Assembly: GCA_021647905.1 (NCBI GenBank)
Contig: JAKITW010000010.1
Span: 1-54,449, forward strand
From: Desulfobacterales bacterium
Lineage (GTDB): Bacteria; Desulfobacterota; Desulfobulbia; Desulfobulbales; BM004
Direction: 5' to 3'
Length of the DNA: 54,449 nt
The stretch's first letter is position 1. Every line of letters begins with the position of its first letter. The notes beneath the pieces are model-generated. The model was not told the DNA's origin. It made no database searches and worked only from the letters and a program-made list of their open reading frames with translations. Shown here piece after piece: positions 1,239 through 54,449 of this stretch. A program made the position numbers and the translations under genes.

Positions 1239-3239
1239 ATGTCTCCCCCCTTTACCCTCATATCATCCTTTACCCCGGCCGGGGACCAGCCCCGGGCCAT
1301 TGATCTCCTGGCAAAGGGGCTCAAGGAGGGCGTCCGGGACCAGGTGCTCCTGGGGGTCACCGGCTCGGGCAAGACCTTTACCATGGCCAAGGTGGTGGAG
1401 GCGGTGCAGCGGCCCTGCCTGGTGATCGCCCCTAACAAGACCCTGGCGGCCCAGCTCTACGGCGAGTTCAAGGAGCTGTTTCCCGAGAACGCGGTGGAGT
1501 ACTTTGTCAGCTACTATGACTACTACCAGCCCGAGGCCTATATCCCCCAGTCCGATACCTATATTGAAAAGGACTCGGCGATCAACGAGGCCATCGACAA
1601 GATGCGCCACTCCGCCACCCGCTCGCTCCTGACCCGGCGCGACGTGCTGATCGTTGCCTCGGTCTCCTGCATCTACGGCCTGGGCTCGCCCGAGGAGTAC
1701 CGGGACATTCACCTTTTTTTACAGAGGGACCGGGAGTATCCCCGGGAGGAGATCCAGCAACGGCTGGTCCATATGCTTTACGAGCGCAACGACATCTCCT
1801 TTCATCGCTCCACCTTCCGGGTGCGGGGCGACGTGGTGGAGATCTTTCCGGCCCATGAGGAGGAGCGGGCGGTGCGGGTGGAGCTGTTCGGCGACACCAT
1901 TGAGGCGATCAAGATCATCGACCCCCTGCGCGGCGAGGTGCTGGCCGAGGTCGATGAACTGACCGTGTTCGCCTCCAGCCATTTTGTCACCTCCAGGGAG
2001 CGGCTGGCCGCGGCCATGATCACCATCAAGGCGGAACTGGCCGAACGGGTGGCGTTTTTCGAGCAGTCGCAACGGCTGCTCGAGGCCCAGCGGATCGAGC
2101 AGCGGACCATGTTCGACCTGGAGATGATCAGTGAACTGGGCTATTGCAACGGCATTGAGAACTACAGCCGGCACCTGACCGGCCGGGCCCCGGGCCGGCC
2201 GCCGCCGACCCTGCTCGATTATTTTCCCGACGATTTTCTGGTTTTTATCGACGAGAGCCATATCGGGGTGCCGCAGTTGAACGGGATGTATCGCGGCGAC
2301 CGCTCCCGCAAGAAGACCCTGGTGGAATTCGGCTTCCGCCTGCCCTCGGCCCTGGACAACCGGCCGCTTCGATTCAACGAGTTCAACGAGCGGATCAACC
2401 AGGTGATTTTTGTATCAGCCACCCCGGGTGATTATGAATACCAGCAGGCCAGGGGCCGGGTGGCGGAACAGATTATCCGGCCCACCGGGCTGATGGACCC
2501 GGAGGTGGTGGTGCGGCCGGCAGCCGGCCAGGTGGATGATCTGCTGGCCGAGATCCGGAGCCGGAGCGAGCGCAACCAGGCAGTGCTGGTCACCACCCTG
2601 ACCAAGCGGATGGCCGAGGACCTGACCGAGTACTATGAAAAACTGGGGGTCCGGGTCCGTTATCTCCACTCCGATATCAAGACCCTGGAGCGGATGGAAC
2701 TGATCCGGGCGCTCAGGCAGCGGGAGTATGACGTGCTGGTGGGGATCAATCTGCTGCGCGAGGGGCTGGATATCCCCGAGGTGTCGCTGGTGGCGATCCT
2801 GGACGCGGACAAGGAGGGTTTTTTAAGAAGCGAGCGGTCGTTGATCCAGACCTGCGGCCGGGCGGCCCGCAACGTCTGCGGCATGGTGATCCTCTACGGT
2901 GACCGGGTCACCGGCTCGATGCAGCGGACCCTGGACGAGACCGTTCGGCGGCGGGCCATCCAGCAGGCCTATAACCAGGAGCACAACATCACCCCGGAGA
3001 CGGTGCAAAGCAGTATCAAGGATATAATGGGCAGCGTCTATGAGCGGGATTACGTCACCGTGGCCGCGGAAGCGGCCGAGCCGATGCGGATATATCACTC
3101 CTTGCAGGATCTGAGAAAGGAGATTAAAAGGCTGGAGAAGGATATGCACCGGGCGGCCAGGGACCTGGCCTTTGAGGAGGCGGCCCGGCTGCGGGACCTG
3201 ATCCGCGACCTGCGGGCCCAGGAACTGGAGTGGTTATAA
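1239..3239 (+). CDS. uvrB: Excinuclease ABC subunit B
   Basis: UvrB, 666 residues from this ATG, is the helicase-like damage-verification subunit of nucleotide excision repair; it acts with UvrA and UvrC. Visible features are the Walker A motif GVTGSGKT (about residues 39-46), the beta-hairpin region with [15 protein letters not shown], the DEAD-like FIDESH box, helicase motifs including [10 protein letters not shown] and QTCGRAARN, and a C-terminal UVR domain ([10 protein letters not shown]) that contacts UvrC. The start at 1239 gives the conserved N terminus ([11 protein letters not shown]) but has no Shine-Dalgarno. An in-frame GTG at 1191 with GGGAGAG upstream would add 16 residues encoded by the heptamer repeat. 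A promoter with a palindrome lies at 1150-1178. The acyltransferase gene follows 45 bp downstream on the same strand. Confidence 0.97.
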
Positions 3240-3284
3240 CCGCTGCGTGAGATAGGATAAAAAGAGGAGTTTCATTCGTAGGGG

Positions 3285-3956
3285 ATGGGCGATTTTTTAT
3301 ACAAGGCGTCACTGGCCGTGGCGCCGCCGCTGTTTTCGGCAATAATCAGGACCCTGTTCCTGACCTGCCGGACCGAGGTGTTCGGCAATGAGCACCGGCA
3401 GCGCTGCCGGGCGGCCGGGCCCTATATCGTTGCCTTCTGGCATTACGGCACTTATTACAATATCCTACAGGACCAGGATGAGGCCATGGTCGGCATGGTC
3501 AGCAACAGCCGGGACGGCGAGTATATGGCCCGGTTCCTTGAGCGCAACGGTTTTACCACGGTGCGGGGGTCCCGGGGCAGGGACAAGGGCGGGCTCAAGG
3601 CCCTGCTTAAGATGGTCCTGGAAGTAAAACAGGGCAAGGTCGGGGTTATCGTGGCCGACGGCTCCCAGGGACCGGTCCGGGTGGTGCAGCCCGGGGCGAT
3701 CATCCTGGCCGGCCGCACCGGCGCGCCGGTCCTGCCCATGGCCTGGGCCGCGAACCGGTATCATGCCTTTGGCACCTGGGACCGGAGCATCCTGCCGCTG
3801 CCCTTTGCCCGGATTGCCTTGGGCTACGGCGAGCCGCTCTATGTGGAGCCGGGGATCCGCGGCAAAGCCCTGGAGCAGAAGCGGCTGGAGCTGGAAAAGC
3901 GGCTTAATGATTTATACACTGGATTGTGGCAACGTTTCGGACGGAAAGGGCATTAA
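3285..3956 (+). CDS. DUF374-type lysophospholipid acyltransferase family protein
   Basis: A 223-residue protein of the DUF374 branch of the LPLAT acyltransferases, thought to transfer acyl groups in lipid or lipid A metabolism at the inner membrane. Visible signs are a hydrophobic N terminus (about 8-27), the FWHYGTYY block with His53, the SNSRDGEYM segment (73-81), RGSRGRDKGGLKAL (94-107) and the conserved DGSQGP loop (125-130). The length fits the family. AGGAG and AGGGG lie upstream of the ATG. It follows uvrB closely and may be co-transcribed with it. The exact acyl donor and acceptor cannot be read from the sequence. Confidence 0.85.
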   Translation: MGDFLYKASLAVAPPLFSAIIRTLFLTCRTEVFGNEHRQRCRAAGPYIVAFWHYGTYYNILQDQDEAMVGMVSNSRDGEYMARFLERNGFTTVRGSRGRDKGGLKALLKMVLEVKQGKVGVIVADGSQGPVRVVQPGAIILAGRTGAPVLPMAWAANRYHAFGTWDRSILPLPFARIALGYGEPLYVEPGIRGKALEQKRLELEKRLNDLYTGLWQRFGRKGH

Positions 3957-7059: not shown

Positions 7060-8238
7060 ATGACCTCTTTTGCCTTGAACAGGGTTGAGATAGATCTGGC
7101 CGCGCTGGCTGCCAACTACGCTGTTGTCCGGGAAACGGTTGGCAGCGGGGTGCGGGTGATGGCGGTGGTCAAGGCCGATGCCTATGGCCACGGCATGGTG
7201 CGGGTGGCCCGGACCCTGGCCGCGGCCGGGGCCCGGACCTTCGGGGTGGCCGAGGTCGAGGAAGGGATGGCCCTTCGTGGCGCCGGGGTCCCCGGGGAGA
7301 TCGTGGTCCTGCTCGGCGGTCCCTTGGAGTCTGTTGCCGAAATGGTCGGCAATCAACTCACCCCGGTGGTATTTGATATTGATACCCTGGCGGAACTTTC
7401 GCAGCGGGCCCGGGCCCTGGACGCGGTACTGGACGTCCATCTGAAGGTGGACGTGGGCATGGGCCGGCTGGGGATTATGCCGGCCGAGGTGCAGGGTTTT
7501 GTCCGGCAATTGACCGCCCTGCCCGGGCTGCGGCTCACCGGGGTGCTCAGTCATCTGCCGGCCGCGGATGACCCGGCGGCGGACCAGAACACCTCGACCC
7601 AGCTGCGTTGTTTTCAGGAGGTGCTGGCCGGACTGGAGCAGAAGAACGGCGTGGGTCCGGTCACCCATATAGCCAATTCAGCGGCGTTGCTGTATCATCA
7701 GCCCGCCCGCCTGGATATGGTCCGGCCCGGAATCTCTTTATACGGATATTATCCCGACGGCGCTGCCGGTATTGGCGCGGCAACGGTCAAACTCCGGCCG
7801 GTGATGCGGTTCAAGACCCGGGTGCTGCAGGTCAAGGAGGTCCCGGCCGGCGCTGGTATCAGTTACGGCCATACCTTTGTCACCCGCCGGCCCACCCGGC
7901 TGGCGGTGCTGCCGGTGGGCTATGATGACGGTTATTTACGCAGACTGTCCAACCGGGCCCAGGTGCTGATCCACGGCCAGCGGGCCCCGGTCCGCGGCCG
8001 GGTCTGCATGAACGCCTGCATGGTGGATATCACCGACCTGGACGATGCGGCCGCGGTGCGGCCCGGCGACGAGGTGGTGTTGATCGGCCCACAGGGCGGG
8101 GAGTTGATCAGCGCCGATGAACTGGCCGGCTGGCTGGAGACCATCAGCTACGAGGTGCTCTGTCTGATCGGCAGCCGTAATCAGCGGTTTTATTCGGAAA
8201 AGTCTGAATTCACCGCGGAGAATATTTTTGTTTTTTAA
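7060..8238 (+). CDS. alr: Alanine racemase
   Basis: Alr, 392 residues, interconverts L- and D-alanine with pyridoxal phosphate and supplies D-Ala for peptidoglycan in the cytoplasm. The PLP-binding lysine is in VVKADAYGHG (Lys38). The second catalytic base is the Tyr of ISYGHTF (about Tyr269). Conserved RVCMNACMVDIT lies near the C-terminal beta-domain. The last 15 residues (from YSEKSE) form an unusual polar and aromatic tail. It starts 2 bp after the membrane-protein stop. The stop codon overlaps the left direct repeat of the first 101-bp element. Confidence 0.97.
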   Translation: MTSFALNRVEIDLAALAANYAVVRETVGSGVRVMAVVKADAYGHGMVRVARTLAAAGARTFGVAEVEEGMALRGAGVPGEIVVLLGGPLESVAEMVGNQLTPVVFDIDTLAELSQRARALDAVLDVHLKVDVGMGRLGIMPAEVQGFVRQLTALPGLRLTGVLSHLPAADDPAADQNTSTQLRCFQEVLAGLEQKNGVGPVTHIANSAALLYHQPARLDMVRPGISLYGYYPDGAAGIGAATVKLRPVMRFKTRVLQVKEVPAGAGISYGHTFVTRRPTRLAVLPVGYDDGYLRRLSNRAQVLIHGQRAPVRGRVCMNACMVDITDLDDAAAVRPGDEVVLIGPQGGELISADELAGWLETISYEVLCLIGSRNQRFYSEKSEFTAENIFVF

Positions 8239-8242
8239 AGTT

Positions 8243-8343
8243 GATGAACTCGTAACAACCCGAAAGGCTTCAAATGCCACCCAATAAAATCAACAAGTTA
8301 CAAGAGGAATCACGTCCGTCGAGCGGGTTGTTGCGAGACCGAC
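8243..8343 (+). repeat. 101-bp MITE-like element, copy 1
   Basis: One of three near-identical copies (others at 13710-13810 and 21082-21182). The ends form an inverted repeat centred on CTCGTAACAACCCG (left) and CGGGTTGTTGCGAG (right), 13 of 14 pairing. It is flanked by AAAGTT at 8237-8242 and again at 8344-8349, a perfect 6-bp direct repeat that looks like a target duplication. The left repeat overlaps the alr stop codon. No coding capacity. Confidence 0.85.
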
Positions 8344-8369
8344 AAAGTTAACAGGATTGGAAAGAGTTA

Positions 8370-10028
8370 ATGATCAAGGCACAGGTTAAGGAATTACTGG
8401 ATACATGTTTTGCCCGGGGCGTGGCCCGGGGATTGTGGAGCGAGGCCGCGTCCGGCTCCTATAGTCTGGAGCTGCCCCGGCATGAGGCGCACGGCGATTT
8501 TTCCACCAACATGGCCATGGTCATTGCCGGCCGGGACAGGAAGAATCCCCGGCAGGTGGCGGAGCAGCTTAAAACATTGCTGGAGGAGGATAGCTCTTTG
8601 CTCGACCGGCTGGAGGTGGCTGGTCCCGGCTTTGTCAACCTCTTTGTCAAGGACGAGGCATGCCAGGCGGTGTTGCCCGCGCTCATTGAGCAGGGCCGGG
8701 ATTACGGACTGTCCGACATCGGTCAAGGGCGCAAGGTGCTGGTGGAGTTTGTCAGCGCCAACCCCACCGGGCCGCTGTCAGTGGGCCATGGCCGGCAGGC
8801 GATTCTGGGCGATGCCATTGCCCGGCTCCTGGCGGCCACTGGTCACAGGGTGACCCGGGAGTACTATTACAACAACGCCGGCCGGCAGATGCGGGTGCTG
8901 GGCGAATCCTGCCGGGCCCGCTACCTGGAGGCCCTGGGCCTGGAGTCTTGCTTTCCCGAGGACGGGTACCAGGGTGACTATATCCGGGAGATCGCCGCCG
9001 GGCTGGTCCGGGACAAGGGCGATTCGCTCAAGGATTGTCAGGAGGTGGAGCCGTTCAAGGAGGCGGCGGAAAAGGCGATTTTTGCCGATATCAGCGCCAC
9101 CTTGGAGCGGTTCGGCATCTGTTTCGACAACTACTACAACGAGCGTTCGCTGTACGAAAAGGGGCTGGTGGATGACGTAGTCGCCTGCCTGCGGCAAAAG
9201 GGGCTGGTCTACGATCATGACGGCGCGGTCTGGTTCAAGACCACTGAGTTCGGCATGGATAAGGACCGGGTGATCATCAAGTCCAGCGGCGAGCCTACCT
9301 ACCGGCTGCCGGATATTGCCTATCATCGCGAGAAGTTCAGGCGCGGTTTTGACTGGCTGGTGGATATCTTCGGCTCTGATCATATCGGCACGGTGCCCGA
9401 TGTGCTGGCCGGGGTGCGGGCCCTGGGCTATGACGATTCCAGGGTCTCGGTGGTGATCCACCAGTTCGTCACCCTGACCCGGCACGGCAAACAGGTGAAG
9501 ATGTCCACCCGCAAGGCGACCTTTGTCACGGTGGACGAACTGTTGGACGAGGTGGGCCCGGACGTGGCCCGGTTCATCTTTCTGACCCGCAAGGCGGACA
9601 GCCAGCTGGAGTTCGATCTTAACCTGGCAGCCAGGGAGAGCCAGGAGAACCCGGTATATTATGTCCAGTATGCCAATGCCCGGCTGGCCAGCATCCGTAA
9701 ACAGGCGGCAGCCAGGGGGGTGGACCGTGGTCCCCTGGCCGACACGGACCTGACCCTTCTCTCCCTGCCTGCCGAACGGAAGATGCTCAAGAGCATGGCC
9801 GGGTATGCGGACCTGGTGGAGAGCGCGGCCCTGGCCCTGGAGCCGCATCGGATTATATTTTTTCTGATCGACCTTGCCGGGCAATTCCACAGTTACTACA
9901 ATCAACATAAGGTGATCTCCGACGACCCGGAGCTTACCCGGGCCCGTCTCTGGCTGGCCCACGGGCTGCAGCAGGTGTTCAGCAACGGCCTGCGGGTGGT
10001 GGGGTTGTCGGCGCCGGAGAGGATGTAG
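8370..10028 (+). CDS. argS: Arginyl-tRNA synthetase
   Basis: ArgS, 552 residues, is a class I aminoacyl-tRNA synthetase. The N-terminal Add1 tRNA-recognition domain spans about 1-110. The HIGH-type signature is in SANPTGPLSVGHGRQA. The KMSK-equivalent is KMSTRKATF. The C-terminal DALR anticodon-binding domain includes EHRIIFFL-like helices and ends LRVVGLSAPERM. Length is standard. The start follows the 101-bp repeat by 26 bp; GGAAAGAG lies upstream. It is followed by a heptamer-repeat array and a short ORF in the place where related bacteria often carry a SPOR-domain gene. Confidence 0.97.
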   Translation: MIKAQVKELLDTCFARGVARGLWSEAASGSYSLELPRHEAHGDFSTNMAMVIAGRDRKNPRQVAEQLKTLLEEDSSLLDRLEVAGPGFVNLFVKDEACQAVLPALIEQGRDYGLSDIGQGRKVLVEFVSANPTGPLSVGHGRQAILGDAIARLLAATGHRVTREYYYNNAGRQMRVLGESCRARYLEALGLESCFPEDGYQGDYIREIAAGLVRDKGDSLKDCQEVEPFKEAAEKAIFADISATLERFGICFDNYYNERSLYEKGLVDDVVACLRQKGLVYDHDGAVWFKTTEFGMDKDRVIIKSSGEPTYRLPDIAYHREKFRRGFDWLVDIFGSDHIGTVPDVLAGVRALGYDDSRVSVVIHQFVTLTRHGKQVKMSTRKATFVTVDELLDEVGPDVARFIFLTRKADSQLEFDLNLAARESQENPVYYVQYANARLASIRKQAAARGVDRGPLADTDLTLLSLPAERKMLKSMAGYADLVESAALALEPHRIIFFLIDLAGQFHSYYNQHKVISDDPELTRARLWLAHGLQQVFSNGLRVVGLSAPERM

Positions 10029-10029
10029 T

Positions 10030-10240
10030 CCAGAGGACAGAGGACAGAGGACAGAAGACGAGAGACGGAAGACGAGAGACGAGAGACGGAAGACAGAGGA
10101 CAGAGGACAGAGGACGGAAAAGACAGTGGGCAGTAGGCGGTAACAAAGATGGAGCAGTGAGCGTGGTCCGAATATAATATTCTCTGCACCCTGCACCCTG
10201 CACCCTGCACCCTGCACCCTGCACCCTGCACCCTGCACTC
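10030..10240 (+). repeat. Two heptamer tandem arrays (AGAGGAC and CTGCACC types)
   Basis: From 10030 to about 10117 the sequence consists of degenerate 7-bp units such as AGAGGAC, GAGAGAC and GAAGACG. From 10184 to 10232 there are seven perfect tandem copies of CTGCACC, then two decayed units. An unrelated spacer of about 65 bp separates the arrays. They fill the argS-10266 gap. The 7-bp period resembles STRR sequences of cyanobacteria. There are no CRISPR-type spacers. Confidence 0.9.
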
Positions 10241-11171: not shown

Positions 11172-13709
<2,538 letters not shown>

Positions 13710-13810
13710 GATGAACTCGTAACAACCCGAAAGGTTTCAAATGCCACCCAATAAAATCAACAAGTTACAAGATGAATCACGTCCGTCGAGCGGGTTGTTG
13801 CGAGACCGAC
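13710..13810 (+). repeat. 101-bp MITE-like element, copy 2
   Basis: Nearly identical to the copy at 8243. It is flanked by AAATAA on both sides (13704-13709, which includes the secA stop TAA, and 13811-13816), a perfect direct repeat. It follows the secA stop with no gap and precedes argJ by 25 bp. Confidence 0.88.
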
Positions 13811-13835
13811 AAATAATGTCCCTACAGAAGACTCG

Positions 13836-21051: not shown

Positions 21052-21081
21052 TTCATTTTTTTTGTTCGTAAATCAAATATT

Positions 21082-21182
21082 GATAAACTCGTAACAACCC
21101 GAAAGGCTTCAAATGCCACCCAATAAAATCAACAAGTTACAAGACGAATCACGTCCGTCGAGCGGGTTGTTGCGAGACCGAC
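21082..21182 (+). repeat. 101-bp MITE-like element, copy 3
   Basis: Third copy of the element at 8243 and 13710. It is flanked by AAATATT (21075-21081) and AAATGTT (21183-21189), 6 of 7 identical. It lies 31 bp upstream of the kamA-family start and 68 bp past the channel stop, so it may affect transcription between them. Confidence 0.85.
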
Positions 21183-21250
21183 AAATGTTCGATTGTTTAT
21201 ATGAAGTCGTTGCGGGCGAAGCTCGGTGTCCGGGCAGGTATCCTTGCAAT

Positions 21251-25444: not shown

Positions 25445-25640
25445 CCAGAGGACAGAGGACGGAGGACCCGCCTTTGCCATCCTCCTTCGCCTGATGGCTA
25501 CGGCGGGCAAGCAGAGGACAGTGGACAGAGGACGGAGGACAGAGGACAGAGGACAGTGGACAGTGGACAGTAAACCAAACACCAAACACCAGGCACCAAA
25601 CACCAGGCACCAGGCACCAGGCACCAGGCACTAAAAACAG
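25445..25640 (+). repeat. Heptamer tandem arrays (AGAGGAC and ACCAGGC types)
   Basis: Degenerate 7-bp units of AGAGGAC/AGTGGAC run to about 25570, interrupted by a hairpin (25467-25507). ACCAAAC/ACCAGGC units then continue to about 25632. This is the same class of array as at 10030-10240. It begins shortly after the aldolase stop. Confidence 0.88.
25467..25507. repeat. REP-like hairpin inside the heptamer array
   Basis: CCCGCC and GCCATC (25467-25481) pair with GATGGC and GGCGGG (25493-25507); a 3-by-3 internal bulge and an 11-nt loop complete the hairpin. It sits inside the heptamer array like an insertion. It resembles REP-type palindromes seen in many Gram-negative genomes. Confidence 0.6.
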
Positions 25641-32744: not shown

Positions 32745-35264
32745 ATGGATACAGATCACGATTCCAGAACAGGAAGTTGTTGTCATCCGGACCCGGATGA
32801 CGGGTCTGAATATCGAGACCCGGTCTGCGGCATGACCACGGATGATCCGGATGCTTATCAGCCATATGATCATAACGGCAGGACCTATTATTTCTGCAGT
32901 GACCACTGCCTGACGAAATTTAAAAACGATCCCGGTTCCTTCACCCCCGGTGGTCATGATACCGGACCATTGCCAGGCAAGCCAGCGGGCCCGGGCAGCC
33001 ATTCCGAAACCCCGAATTCCACATCTCAAGCCCAGACCTACACCTGCCCCATGGACCCTGAAATTATCCGGGACCAGCCGGGCGCCTGCCCTAAATGCGG
33101 CATGGCCCTGGAGCCGATGACCCCGGTGATTCCGGCCTCCCGCACCGAATATACCTGCCCCATGCATCCGGAAATCGTGCGGCCGGGGCCGGATAATTGC
33201 CCTAAATGCGGCATGGCCCTGGAACCCCGGGACGTGGCGGTTGACGAGCAGGAGGCAAACCCGGAATACGCGGACATGAAAAACCGTTTTGTGGTGGCCG
33301 GAATACTGTCCGTGCCCCTGGTACTGATCGCCATGCGGACCATGATTCCGGGGCTGGGGGTGCTTGATACCCTTGCCTCGGCCAGGACCTATGAATGGCT
33401 CGAACTGATTCTGGCCACCCCGGTGGTAATCTGGGGTGGCTGGCCGTTTTACGTCCGCGCCTGGCAGTCGGTGATCAACCGGAGCCTGAATATGTTCACC
33501 CTGATCGGGCTCGGCGTTTCAATGGCCTATATCTATAGCCTGGTTGCCGTGTATTTCCCCGATCTTTTCCCGGCCGCCATGCGCGGGCCCGACGGCACGG
33601 TGGGTGTCTACTTCGAGGCGGCGGCGGTGATCGTCACCCTGATCCTTCTGGGCCAGGTGCTGGAACTGAGGGCCCGCAGCCAGACCGGTGCGGCCATCAA
33701 GGCCTTGCTCGGGCTGGCGCCCAAAACCGCGCGCAAGATAAACGACGATGATACCGAAGCGGATATTCCCCTGGAACACGTCCGGAAGGGCGACCGTCTC
33801 CGGGTCAGGCCCGGCGAGAAGATCCCGGTTGACGGCATTGTGGTCGAGGGAGCCAGCAGCGTGGATGAGTCGATGATCTCGGGCGAGCCGATCCCGGTTG
33901 AAAAAGGTCCCGGCGATCCGGTGGTCGGGGCCACGGTGAACGGCACCGGATCCCTTATTATGCTGGCCGACAAGGTCGGTTCAGAGACCCTGCTTGCCCG
34001 GATCGTCCAGATGGTGGCCGCGGCCCAGCGGAGCCGGGCCCCCATCCAGAAGCTGGCTGATATCGTTTCCAGCTATTTCGTGCCCGCGGTTATCGCCATT
34101 GCCGCGCTTACCTTTGTCGTCTGGCTGCTGGTCGGGCCGGAGCCGCGGCTTACCCATGCGCTTATCGCCGCGGTCTCGGTATTGATCATTGCCTGCCCCT
34201 GCGCCCTGGGACTGGCCACGCCCATGTCGATCATGGTCGCCACTGGCAAGGGCGCCACCATGGGGGTGCTTTTCAGGAATGCCGAGGCCATTGAAATCCT
34301 GCGCAAGGTCAATACCCTGGTGGTGGACAAGACCGGCACCCTGACCGAGGGCAGGCCGAAATTGACCGATGTGGTACCGGCCGTTGGTTTTACTGAAAAG
34401 GAACTGCTGAAACTTGCCGCTTCCCTGGAAAAGGGCAGCGAGCATCCGCTGGCAGCCGCCATTGTCGAGGGCGCCGGCCAAAGGGGGGTCAGGGCCGGCG
34501 CGGTAACGGATTTCTCCTCCATTACCGGCAAGGGTGTTGCCGGGCTGATGGATGATAAAAAGATACTGCTCGGCAATAAAAAACTGCTTGATGACTTTTC
34601 CATCGATCCCGGTGAACTGGCCGACCTTGCCGAACAGATGCGGGGTGAGGGCAAGACCGTCATGTTTGTGGCAAGGGACAACTCGGTTGCCGGTCTGGTG
34701 GCGGTTGCCGACCCGATCAAGGAGACAACCCCCGAGGCGGTCAGGCAATTGCACCGGGAAAACATCCGGATCATCATGCTGACCGGCGATAACAAGGCCA
34801 CGGCCGAGGCAGTGGCTGCAAAGCTCGACATCGACGGGGTGGTGGCCGAGGTGCTGCCCGATGAAAAGGCCAATGTGGTCAAGGAGTTTCAGGAAAAAGG
34901 CGACATAGTGGCCATGGCCGGCGACGGCATCAATGATGCTCCGGCCCTGGCCCAGGCCCAGGTCGGCATTGCCATGGGCACCGGCACCGACGTGGCCATG
35001 GAGTCCGCCGGGGTCACCCTGGTCAAAGGCGATCTCATCGGCATTGTCCGGGCCCGCCGACTCAGCCGGGTCACCATGAACAATATCAAGCAGAACCTGT
35101 TTTTCGCCTTTATCTATAACTCGCTGGGGGTGCCGGTGGCGGCCGGAGTATTGTATCCGGTTTTCGGGGTGTTGTTAAGTCCGATTATTGCTGCGGCAGC
35201 CATGAGTTTCAGCTCTGTGTCGGTTATCGCCAATGCGCTCAGGCTGAAGACAGTGAAGGTGTAA
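32745..35264 (+). CDS. copA: Copper-type P1B ATPase with YHS and two heavy-metal-binding domains
   Basis: An 839-residue P1B-type ATPase, probably exporting Cu+ or Ag+ from the cytoplasm. The N terminus has a Cys/His-rich start (SCCH at 11-14), a YHS domain (about 22-66; [14 protein letters not shown]) and two copies of the heavy-metal-binding segment with CPMDPEI...CPKCGM (about 99-124 and 136-161). There is no classical HMA domain (GMTCxxC). The transport motif is CPC (about 484-486), the phosphorylation site is DKTGT (about 528), and GDGIND is near 725. The MerR-type promoter upstream suggests metal induction. Confidence 0.95.
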
Positions 35265-40843: not shown

Positions 40844-41119
40844 GTAAACATTCAGTAAACCCCCTCCTATCGGGAAAGGGGTTTTCTTCTACCAACGGCC
40901 GCTCCATTGAGAAGGGCCGGCTGTTCATAAACAGGCTATCAAGCAGGAACTCGCTTCGCCGCAACGGCGATTCGGAACCCATAAGCATATCCTGCCGAAG
41001 TTGTTTCAAATTCCGCTTTTGCCGTCACGGCTGCGGCTCAGGGTCCGCTACACCGTTCGGTATAAGAAAACCCCTTTCCCGGTCCAATCTCAAACGTACG
41101 GGGTTTACCGAAACCTTAC
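40844..41119 (+). repeat. 276-bp MITE-like element, copy R2, with perfect 8-bp target duplication
   Basis: The middle copy of the 276-bp family. It is flanked by CTGTTAAC at 40836-40843 and again at 41120-41127, a perfect 8-bp direct repeat. This fixes the element ends as GTAAACATTC on the left and CTTAC on the right. It matches R1 with about ten differences. The AAACCCC/GGGGTTT pairs followed by T-rich sequence near each end look like inward-reading terminators. It separates glmM from the S41 protease gene. Confidence 0.92.
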
Positions 41120-54174: not shown

Positions 54175-54449
54175 GTAAGATTTCGGTAAACCCCGTACGT
54201 TTGAGGTTGGACCGGGAAAGGGGTTTTCTTATACCGAACGGTGTAGCGGACCCTGAGCCGCGGCCGTGACGGCAAAAGCGGAAATTGAAACAACTTCGGC
54301 AGGACATGCTTATGGATTCCGAATCGCCGCCGCGGCGAAGCGAGTTCCTGCTTGATAGCCTGTTTATGAACAGCCAGCCCTTCTCAATGGAGCGGCCGTT
54401 GGTAGAAGAAGACCCCTTTCCCGACAGGAGGGGTTTACTGAATGTTTAC
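54175..54449 (-). repeat. 276-bp MITE-like element, copy R3, ending the window
   Basis: The third copy, inverted relative to R1 and R2 and one base shorter (one C fewer near the GTAAACATTC end). Its terminal base is exactly the last base of the window. The flank on the inner side is GATGGTTT (54167-54174), which would be one half of an 8-bp target duplication. Confidence 0.85.

Follow-up and report, generated by a model that had tools for sequence, protein, structure and literature searches.

The usual view of most MITEs is that they are short-lived, each a deletion remnant of a single insertion sequence (IS). The REP-IHF composites of E. coli (RIB/RIP) have inverted repeats around an IHF site, are extragenic and occur in high copy number; they are REP-based, without target duplications and without a DDE partner. 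The ISDol1 group (ISNCY) consists of elements with a length of 1600-1900 bp and duplications of 6-7 bp. MITEs, pairs of a MITE and an IS (RUP) and IHF sites within MITEs (Correia, QMITE1) are already known (PMC2229807, PMC10969869, PMC5896051). The pneumococcal RUP (107 bp) is a high-copy MITE tied to an IS, IS630-Spn1, by its ends and target (PMC2229807). For the Correia element (CREE, NEMIS) of Neisseria, also a short MITE, an IHF site is known from the long form (PMC2649163, PMC2229807), and a role of IHF in end synapsis has been proposed for these long elements (PMC2649163). QMITE1 of Coxiella burnetii likewise carries a conserved WATCAANNNNTTR site, the IHF consensus as printed in PMC5896051.

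The 101-bp element described here can be set against each of these systems. RUP inserts at TA targets by means of an IS630-type enzyme, with no reported functional DNA motif, whereas our element has 6-8 bp duplications, an IS1182-like partner and a central IHF-consensus site. The Correia element has its IHF site only in the 153-157 bp form, occurs in several length classes, duplicates TA and is restricted to one genus, while our element keeps a single length over an order, with the site nearly always at the midpoint; membership in the Correia/CREE family was rejected on the 6-8 bp duplications in place of TA and on the different ends. QMITE1 differs in being larger and confined to a single species, with unrelated ends and no partner IS shown (PMC5896051). 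The element resembles RIB/RIP in its inverted repeats around an IHF site but not in its duplications and DDE partner. From the IS1182 family, whose NCBIfam model matches the partner transposase, it differs in having no gene and sharing only the ends. Searches of the literature with the end sequences of the element returned unrelated occurrences only, and those on ISDol1 and on IS1182 together with MITEs returned no matching element. As far as the literature searched shows, the family itself, its IS1182-like partner, the order-wide length of 101 bp and the conserved predicted IHF site at the midpoint are new.

The stretch analysed (the window; 54,449 nucleotides) forms contig 10 in a draft genome of 2.73 Mb, and it holds three copies of the element on the forward strand, each 101 bp long with GATGAACTCGTAACAACCCG at the left and CGGGTTGTTGCGAGACCGAC at the right terminus, among the genes alr, argS, secA and argJ. 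Copy 1, delimited from sequence and consensus, lies behind alr at 8243-8343 between target duplications AAAGTT (8237-8242 and 8344-8349), and copy 2 lies behind secA at 13710-13810 between duplications AAATAA (13704-13709 and 13811-13816). The left duplication of copy 1 overlaps the alr stop codon TAA (8236-8238), and that of copy 2 contains the whole secA stop TAA (13707-13709), both as the earlier note had described. Copy 3 (21082-21182) is intergenic, close to the start of a gene and not at a stop codon, with a KamA-type radical SAM gene as its neighbour; its direct repeats are imperfect (AAATATT at 21075-21081, AAATGTT at 21183-21189, one mismatch). Coordinates and direct repeats of all three units (8237-8349, 13704-13816 and 21075-21189) agree exactly with those given previously. 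By sequence match, the central IHF-consensus site is AATCAACAAGTTA in copy 1 (8288-8300, element positions 46-58) and lies at 13755-13767 in copy 2 and at 21127-21139 in copy 3.

A search of the genome with a 36-nt piece of the element (up to 3 mismatches) recovered at least 133 copies, compared with none for the reversed control. Full copies are exactly 101 bp long in 118 of 123 cases, and since 55 of these 118 equal the consensus and 81 are at most one base away from it, their spread appears to be recent; a second, older set of variants is also present. The earlier note took the unit for a mobile element with target-site duplications, and the genome-wide tabulation bears this out: perfect direct repeats of 6-8 bp, whose sequence varies between copies, flank 99 of 105 inspected copies (78 of 6 bp, 19 of 7 bp and 2 of 8 bp), and no perfect 5-bp duplication was found among these 105 copies when the element borders were held fixed. 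Empty and filled versions of one site were also recovered. Specifically, TTTACTG-AATGTT-TAC within another repeat is empty in 16 sequence contexts and filled in 2, with AATGTT on both sides; another repeat was used for this comparison, the relatives including no second genome of the same genus.

The 101-bp repeat is a non-coding MITE, i.e., a non-autonomous DNA transposon of fixed length. It is short and present in high copy number, its insertions leave the duplications and the pairs of empty and filled sites described above, and it has terminal inverted repeats, the imperfect inverted ends of which pair in a consensus of 18 genomes. No Rfam family matched the element, and the viral contigs searched held no copy of it. 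An integron attC site was excluded by the target duplications, which differ in sequence at each site.

With regard to the enzyme that moves the element, the most informative genome was a complete one from the same order (G143), in which a search for the left end found 184 ends. The stretches behind these ends are 101-bp copies and an IS of 1,887 bp, which has its ends GATGACCTCGTAAAAAGTC and GATGGCGTCGTAAAAAGT in common with the 101-bp element of that genome (GATGGCTTCGTAAAAAGTC); the interiors of the two are dissimilar, and only the ends are shared. Seventeen IS copies (~17 full-length) are bounded by both ends at 1,886-1,887 bp, and perfect 6-7 bp duplications flank 15 of the 17, at the same type of target. 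The transposase (584 aa; domains DDE_Tnp_1_6, DDE_Tnp_1 and DUF772) has IS1182 as its best NCBIfam model, with 159 bits over 480 residues against a curated cut-off of 270, and we file the partner, which is related to this family, as IS1182-like. On length and duplications, the ISDol1 group is a candidate affiliation for it. Three further genomes hold transposases 52-56% identical to that of G143. Two of these (G222 and G056) lie between the same two ends, and the third (G032) has one matching end, the other side being lost at a contig end. An autonomous element with the same ends and duplication length is thus present in a MITE-carrying genome (G143), with relatives in G222 and G056; more distant IS1182 members were not bounded by these ends.

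In the draft genome of the window itself, no match to a transposase of the partner type was found, the presence of such an enzyme being desirable rather than defining for a MITE, and a search there for left ends with a foreign interior turned up nothing but one point variant of the 101-bp element. The shortest contigs of this draft are ~3 kb, so that a multi-copy 1.9-kb IS could be absent from the assembly, or it could have been lost. Many MITEs outlive their partner element. We infer that an IS of this type acts, or acted, in the window's genome, where the element is probably moved by the transposase of a larger IS; a candidate 1.9-kb partner in this lineage would bear AACAACCCG ends. The ends (left GATGNNCTCGyAAAAAGTC, right its imperfect inverse) would be cut and inserted by the IS1182-like DDE transposase, and integration at TC-AAAnnTT-GA would duplicate 6-8 bp. 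At two loci the partner IS lies directly beside 101-bp copies (L204, and L220 at 1312-3400, where it sits between two), and such adjacency would permit composite structures. A repeat of ~140-150 bp with arms TTACCGC(A/T)GAGTACGCAGAG...CTCTGCGGTGAA was also seen at L081 (~1550-1700), L082 (~1390-1530) and L102 (~1300-1440), bounded by ends of the same type, GATGCAYTCGTAAAAAC ... GACTTTTTGCGGGGCCATC; a second class of MITE seems to use these ends.

The element is widespread among related sulfur-cycling bacteria. Of the order's 243 genomes (it sits with Desulfobulbaceae), 104 have matches to a sequence-only profile built from 12 copies, as do 41 of its 68 genera, and most of the listed matches span positions 1-101 with a length of 99-101 bp. 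Most of the 25 best copies from other genomes have 6-8 bp duplications. Outside the order, a phylum-wide sample yielded only two genomes with a match at 1e-6; the copies of both have duplications, and one copy is exactly 101 bp long. A near-identical copy of the window element was also seen on a contig of 6.5 kb that is recorded as part of a Verrucomicrobia MAG (L167, 4183-4310), which is either misbinned DNA or a case of horizontal transfer.

Aligned over 25 genomes, the element has high information at both ends and again over positions 45-60, where it dips at 52-54, and low information over most of the interior, and the profile at positions 45-60 reproduces the IHF consensus. With both strands searched, 25 of 25 genomes have their best consensus match at positions 45-47, i.e., a consensus site is held at the midpoint throughout, and the centre of the site (position 52) is one base off that of the element (51). 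The match has at most one mismatch in 22 of the 25 genomes (2-3 mismatches in the other three), as compared with 7% of shuffles that have such a match anywhere, although the profile was built from copies with the central motif and this biases the genomes compared. For this reason, the test was repeated with G143 copies picked by the left end alone, and the central match had no more than one mismatch in 63 of these 86 copies, which are related by descent; a control stretch gave 0 of 86. Within G143 the four N positions of the consensus diverge by 0.31 and the fixed positions by 0.07. Consensus RNA folding over 18 genomes supported the terminal inverted repeat as the only stem (covariation term -0.31); a structured RNA was dropped as a candidate, and the conserved centre is therefore more likely a DNA site. 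Four IHF-like proteins are encoded in the window's genome, two of the alpha and two of the beta type, all scoring below curated cut-offs.

Binding of IHF and its action in transposition are suggested by the conserved predicted site. Bound at the midpoint, IHF would bend the 101-bp element and bring its ends side by side for the transposase, and a fixed length would follow from such folding. The interior would be no remnant of the partner IS, its conserved part being the IHF-consensus site at the midpoint. The element appears to have kept one length and one putative internal DNA-bending site over dozens of genera, with nearly all other internal bases changed, and the proposal derived from Neisseria, that IHF aids end pairing in very short transposons, becomes testable by comparative data and simple mutants.

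The preferred target is the palindrome TC-AAAnnTT-GA, with T and C before the duplication and G and A after it; within the duplication, A is found at positions 1 and 2 (75/75 and 72/75) and T at the last position (69/75). The preference for A/T-rich targets proposed in the earlier note therefore stands, while TAA as such gives way to this palindrome. For 30 of 123 copies, another copy lies head-to-tail at a distance of one duplication (107-bp period), 39 of 123 adjoin some related end, and head-to-tail arrays were also found in other genomes (L126, L120). A good target results when the right end GAC, AAAnTT and the left end GATG are joined, and therefore an inserted element would offer the target again. 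In this way the inserted ends would restore half of the target (...GAC|AAAnTT|GATG...), and copies would draw further copies into tandems with a 107-bp period. Target regeneration may explain the tandem copies, as the target logo and the arrays suggest.

The placement at stop codons was evaluated with genes predicted on joined flanks by a simple ORF caller based on codon usage. Two of the three window copies fit the description "inserted at stop codons", as do 13 of the 104 sites that could be tested across the genome, where a duplication overlaps a stop; 86 sites are intergenic, as is copy 3, and 5 are intragenic. Intragenic insertions are strongly depleted (5/104, 5%, vs. 35-38% expected from the target motif), in support of the selection for harmless positions that had been suggested. 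Non-disruptive sites fall at stops in 13% of cases, compared with 2.1% for uniform and 5.4% for target-matched placement (P 0.003), and in 15% compared with 3.9% target-matched when tandem sites are left out (P 0.00005), against background positions that exclude the insertion sites themselves. The raw enrichment of ~7-fold falls to 2-4-fold after matching for the target motif, and to ~2-fold (12 at stops vs. ~5 expected) when the comparison is limited to sites no more than 150 bp from a gene end; genes that the caller misses inflate the contrast. A genome-wide excess at stops is accordingly present as this residue, but it is weak and not clearly reproduced in G143, where 1 of 40 sites of the same element type lies at a stop (<1 expected). 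Most of the stop-codon pattern is accounted for by target choice and selection against gene disruption, and what is left over in this genome is modest. Placement behind or across stops would arise as the target often holds TAA or TGA and gene-breaking insertions are removed. An apparent preference for stop codons can stem largely from target sequence and selection.

Taken as a whole, we consider it likely that the element, for which traces of mobility, ends, duplications and target in common with the IS, a fixed length and the central motif are directly observed, is a 101-bp MITE moved by an IS1182-like IS, with a predicted midpoint IHF site that aids synapsis and a target that it recreates itself. 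We would give an even chance to the further claim that its miniature transposons form a lineage of their own, long-lived and distinct from IS remnants, held at 101 bp across the order and at least once outside it, obligately folded by IHF, regenerating its target and growing in tandem. An ordinary MITE of the same IS type without any role of IHF, in which the likeness of interior and length across genera reflects only descent from one ancestral MITE, vertical or horizontal, seems rather unlikely to us. It would be consistent with the near identity by descent of copies within one genome and with a profile search that favours the ancestral centre, but the interior outside the centre has mostly diverged over the 25 genomes (0.0-0.6 bits at many positions), whereas at the centre 1-2 bits remain exactly where the IHF consensus is fixed, with lower values at its N positions, and this contrast recurs among the G143 copies.

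Two further readings were weighed. It is improbable, in our judgement, that the element is targeted to or selected at stop codons as a 3' end signal, an mRNA-stabilising hairpin or a terminator recruited behind genes. The overlaps with stops above the target-matched null would fit such recruitment, as would the transcript of one copy, which folds as a stem (z -3.9), and 3-4 sites at which the insertion cuts a stop codon behind its T and the junction re-forms it. The stop is restored because the element starts with GA, and such restoration makes more sites harmless. Against recruitment behind genes, insertions before starts are as frequent as those behind stops, the single stop-codon site in G143 offers no parallel, and across genomes the terminal inverted repeat, with its covariation term of -0.31, is the sole supported stem. 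Palindromes of the REP/REPIN type, which a RAYT (HUH) enzyme copies, would likewise be short, extragenic, high in copy number and clustered in tandem; HUH enzymes of the REP/RAYT group, however, are not known to make target duplications, and with clear 6-8 bp duplications and a DDE-type partner IS that has the same ends and duplications, we regard this origin as extremely improbable.

Beyond the 101-bp element, the window contains other repeats. A repeat of ~276 bp with inverted ends GTAAACATTCAGTAAACCCC / GGGGTTTACCGAAACCTTAC occurs at 1-276, 40844-41119 and 54175-54436, with CTGTTAAC (8 bp) on the flanks of the middle copy. Considered as the potential parent of the 101-bp element, this repeat proved to be a different element, which looks like another MITE with a different partner. 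Its end is a recurrent target of the 101-bp element, and a degraded right end (CCAGCAGGTTTGTTGCGACGCCATC) adjoining it at 290-316 is probably a fossil of the 101-bp or a related element. Tandem GAGGACAGAGGACAGAG repeats with a 7-bp period (family D1) are found at 10004-10108, at the 3' end of argS, and at 25499-25603, and two tandem 77-bp repeats at 33039-33226 encode a CPMDPEI... motif that resembles heavy-metal-binding ones.
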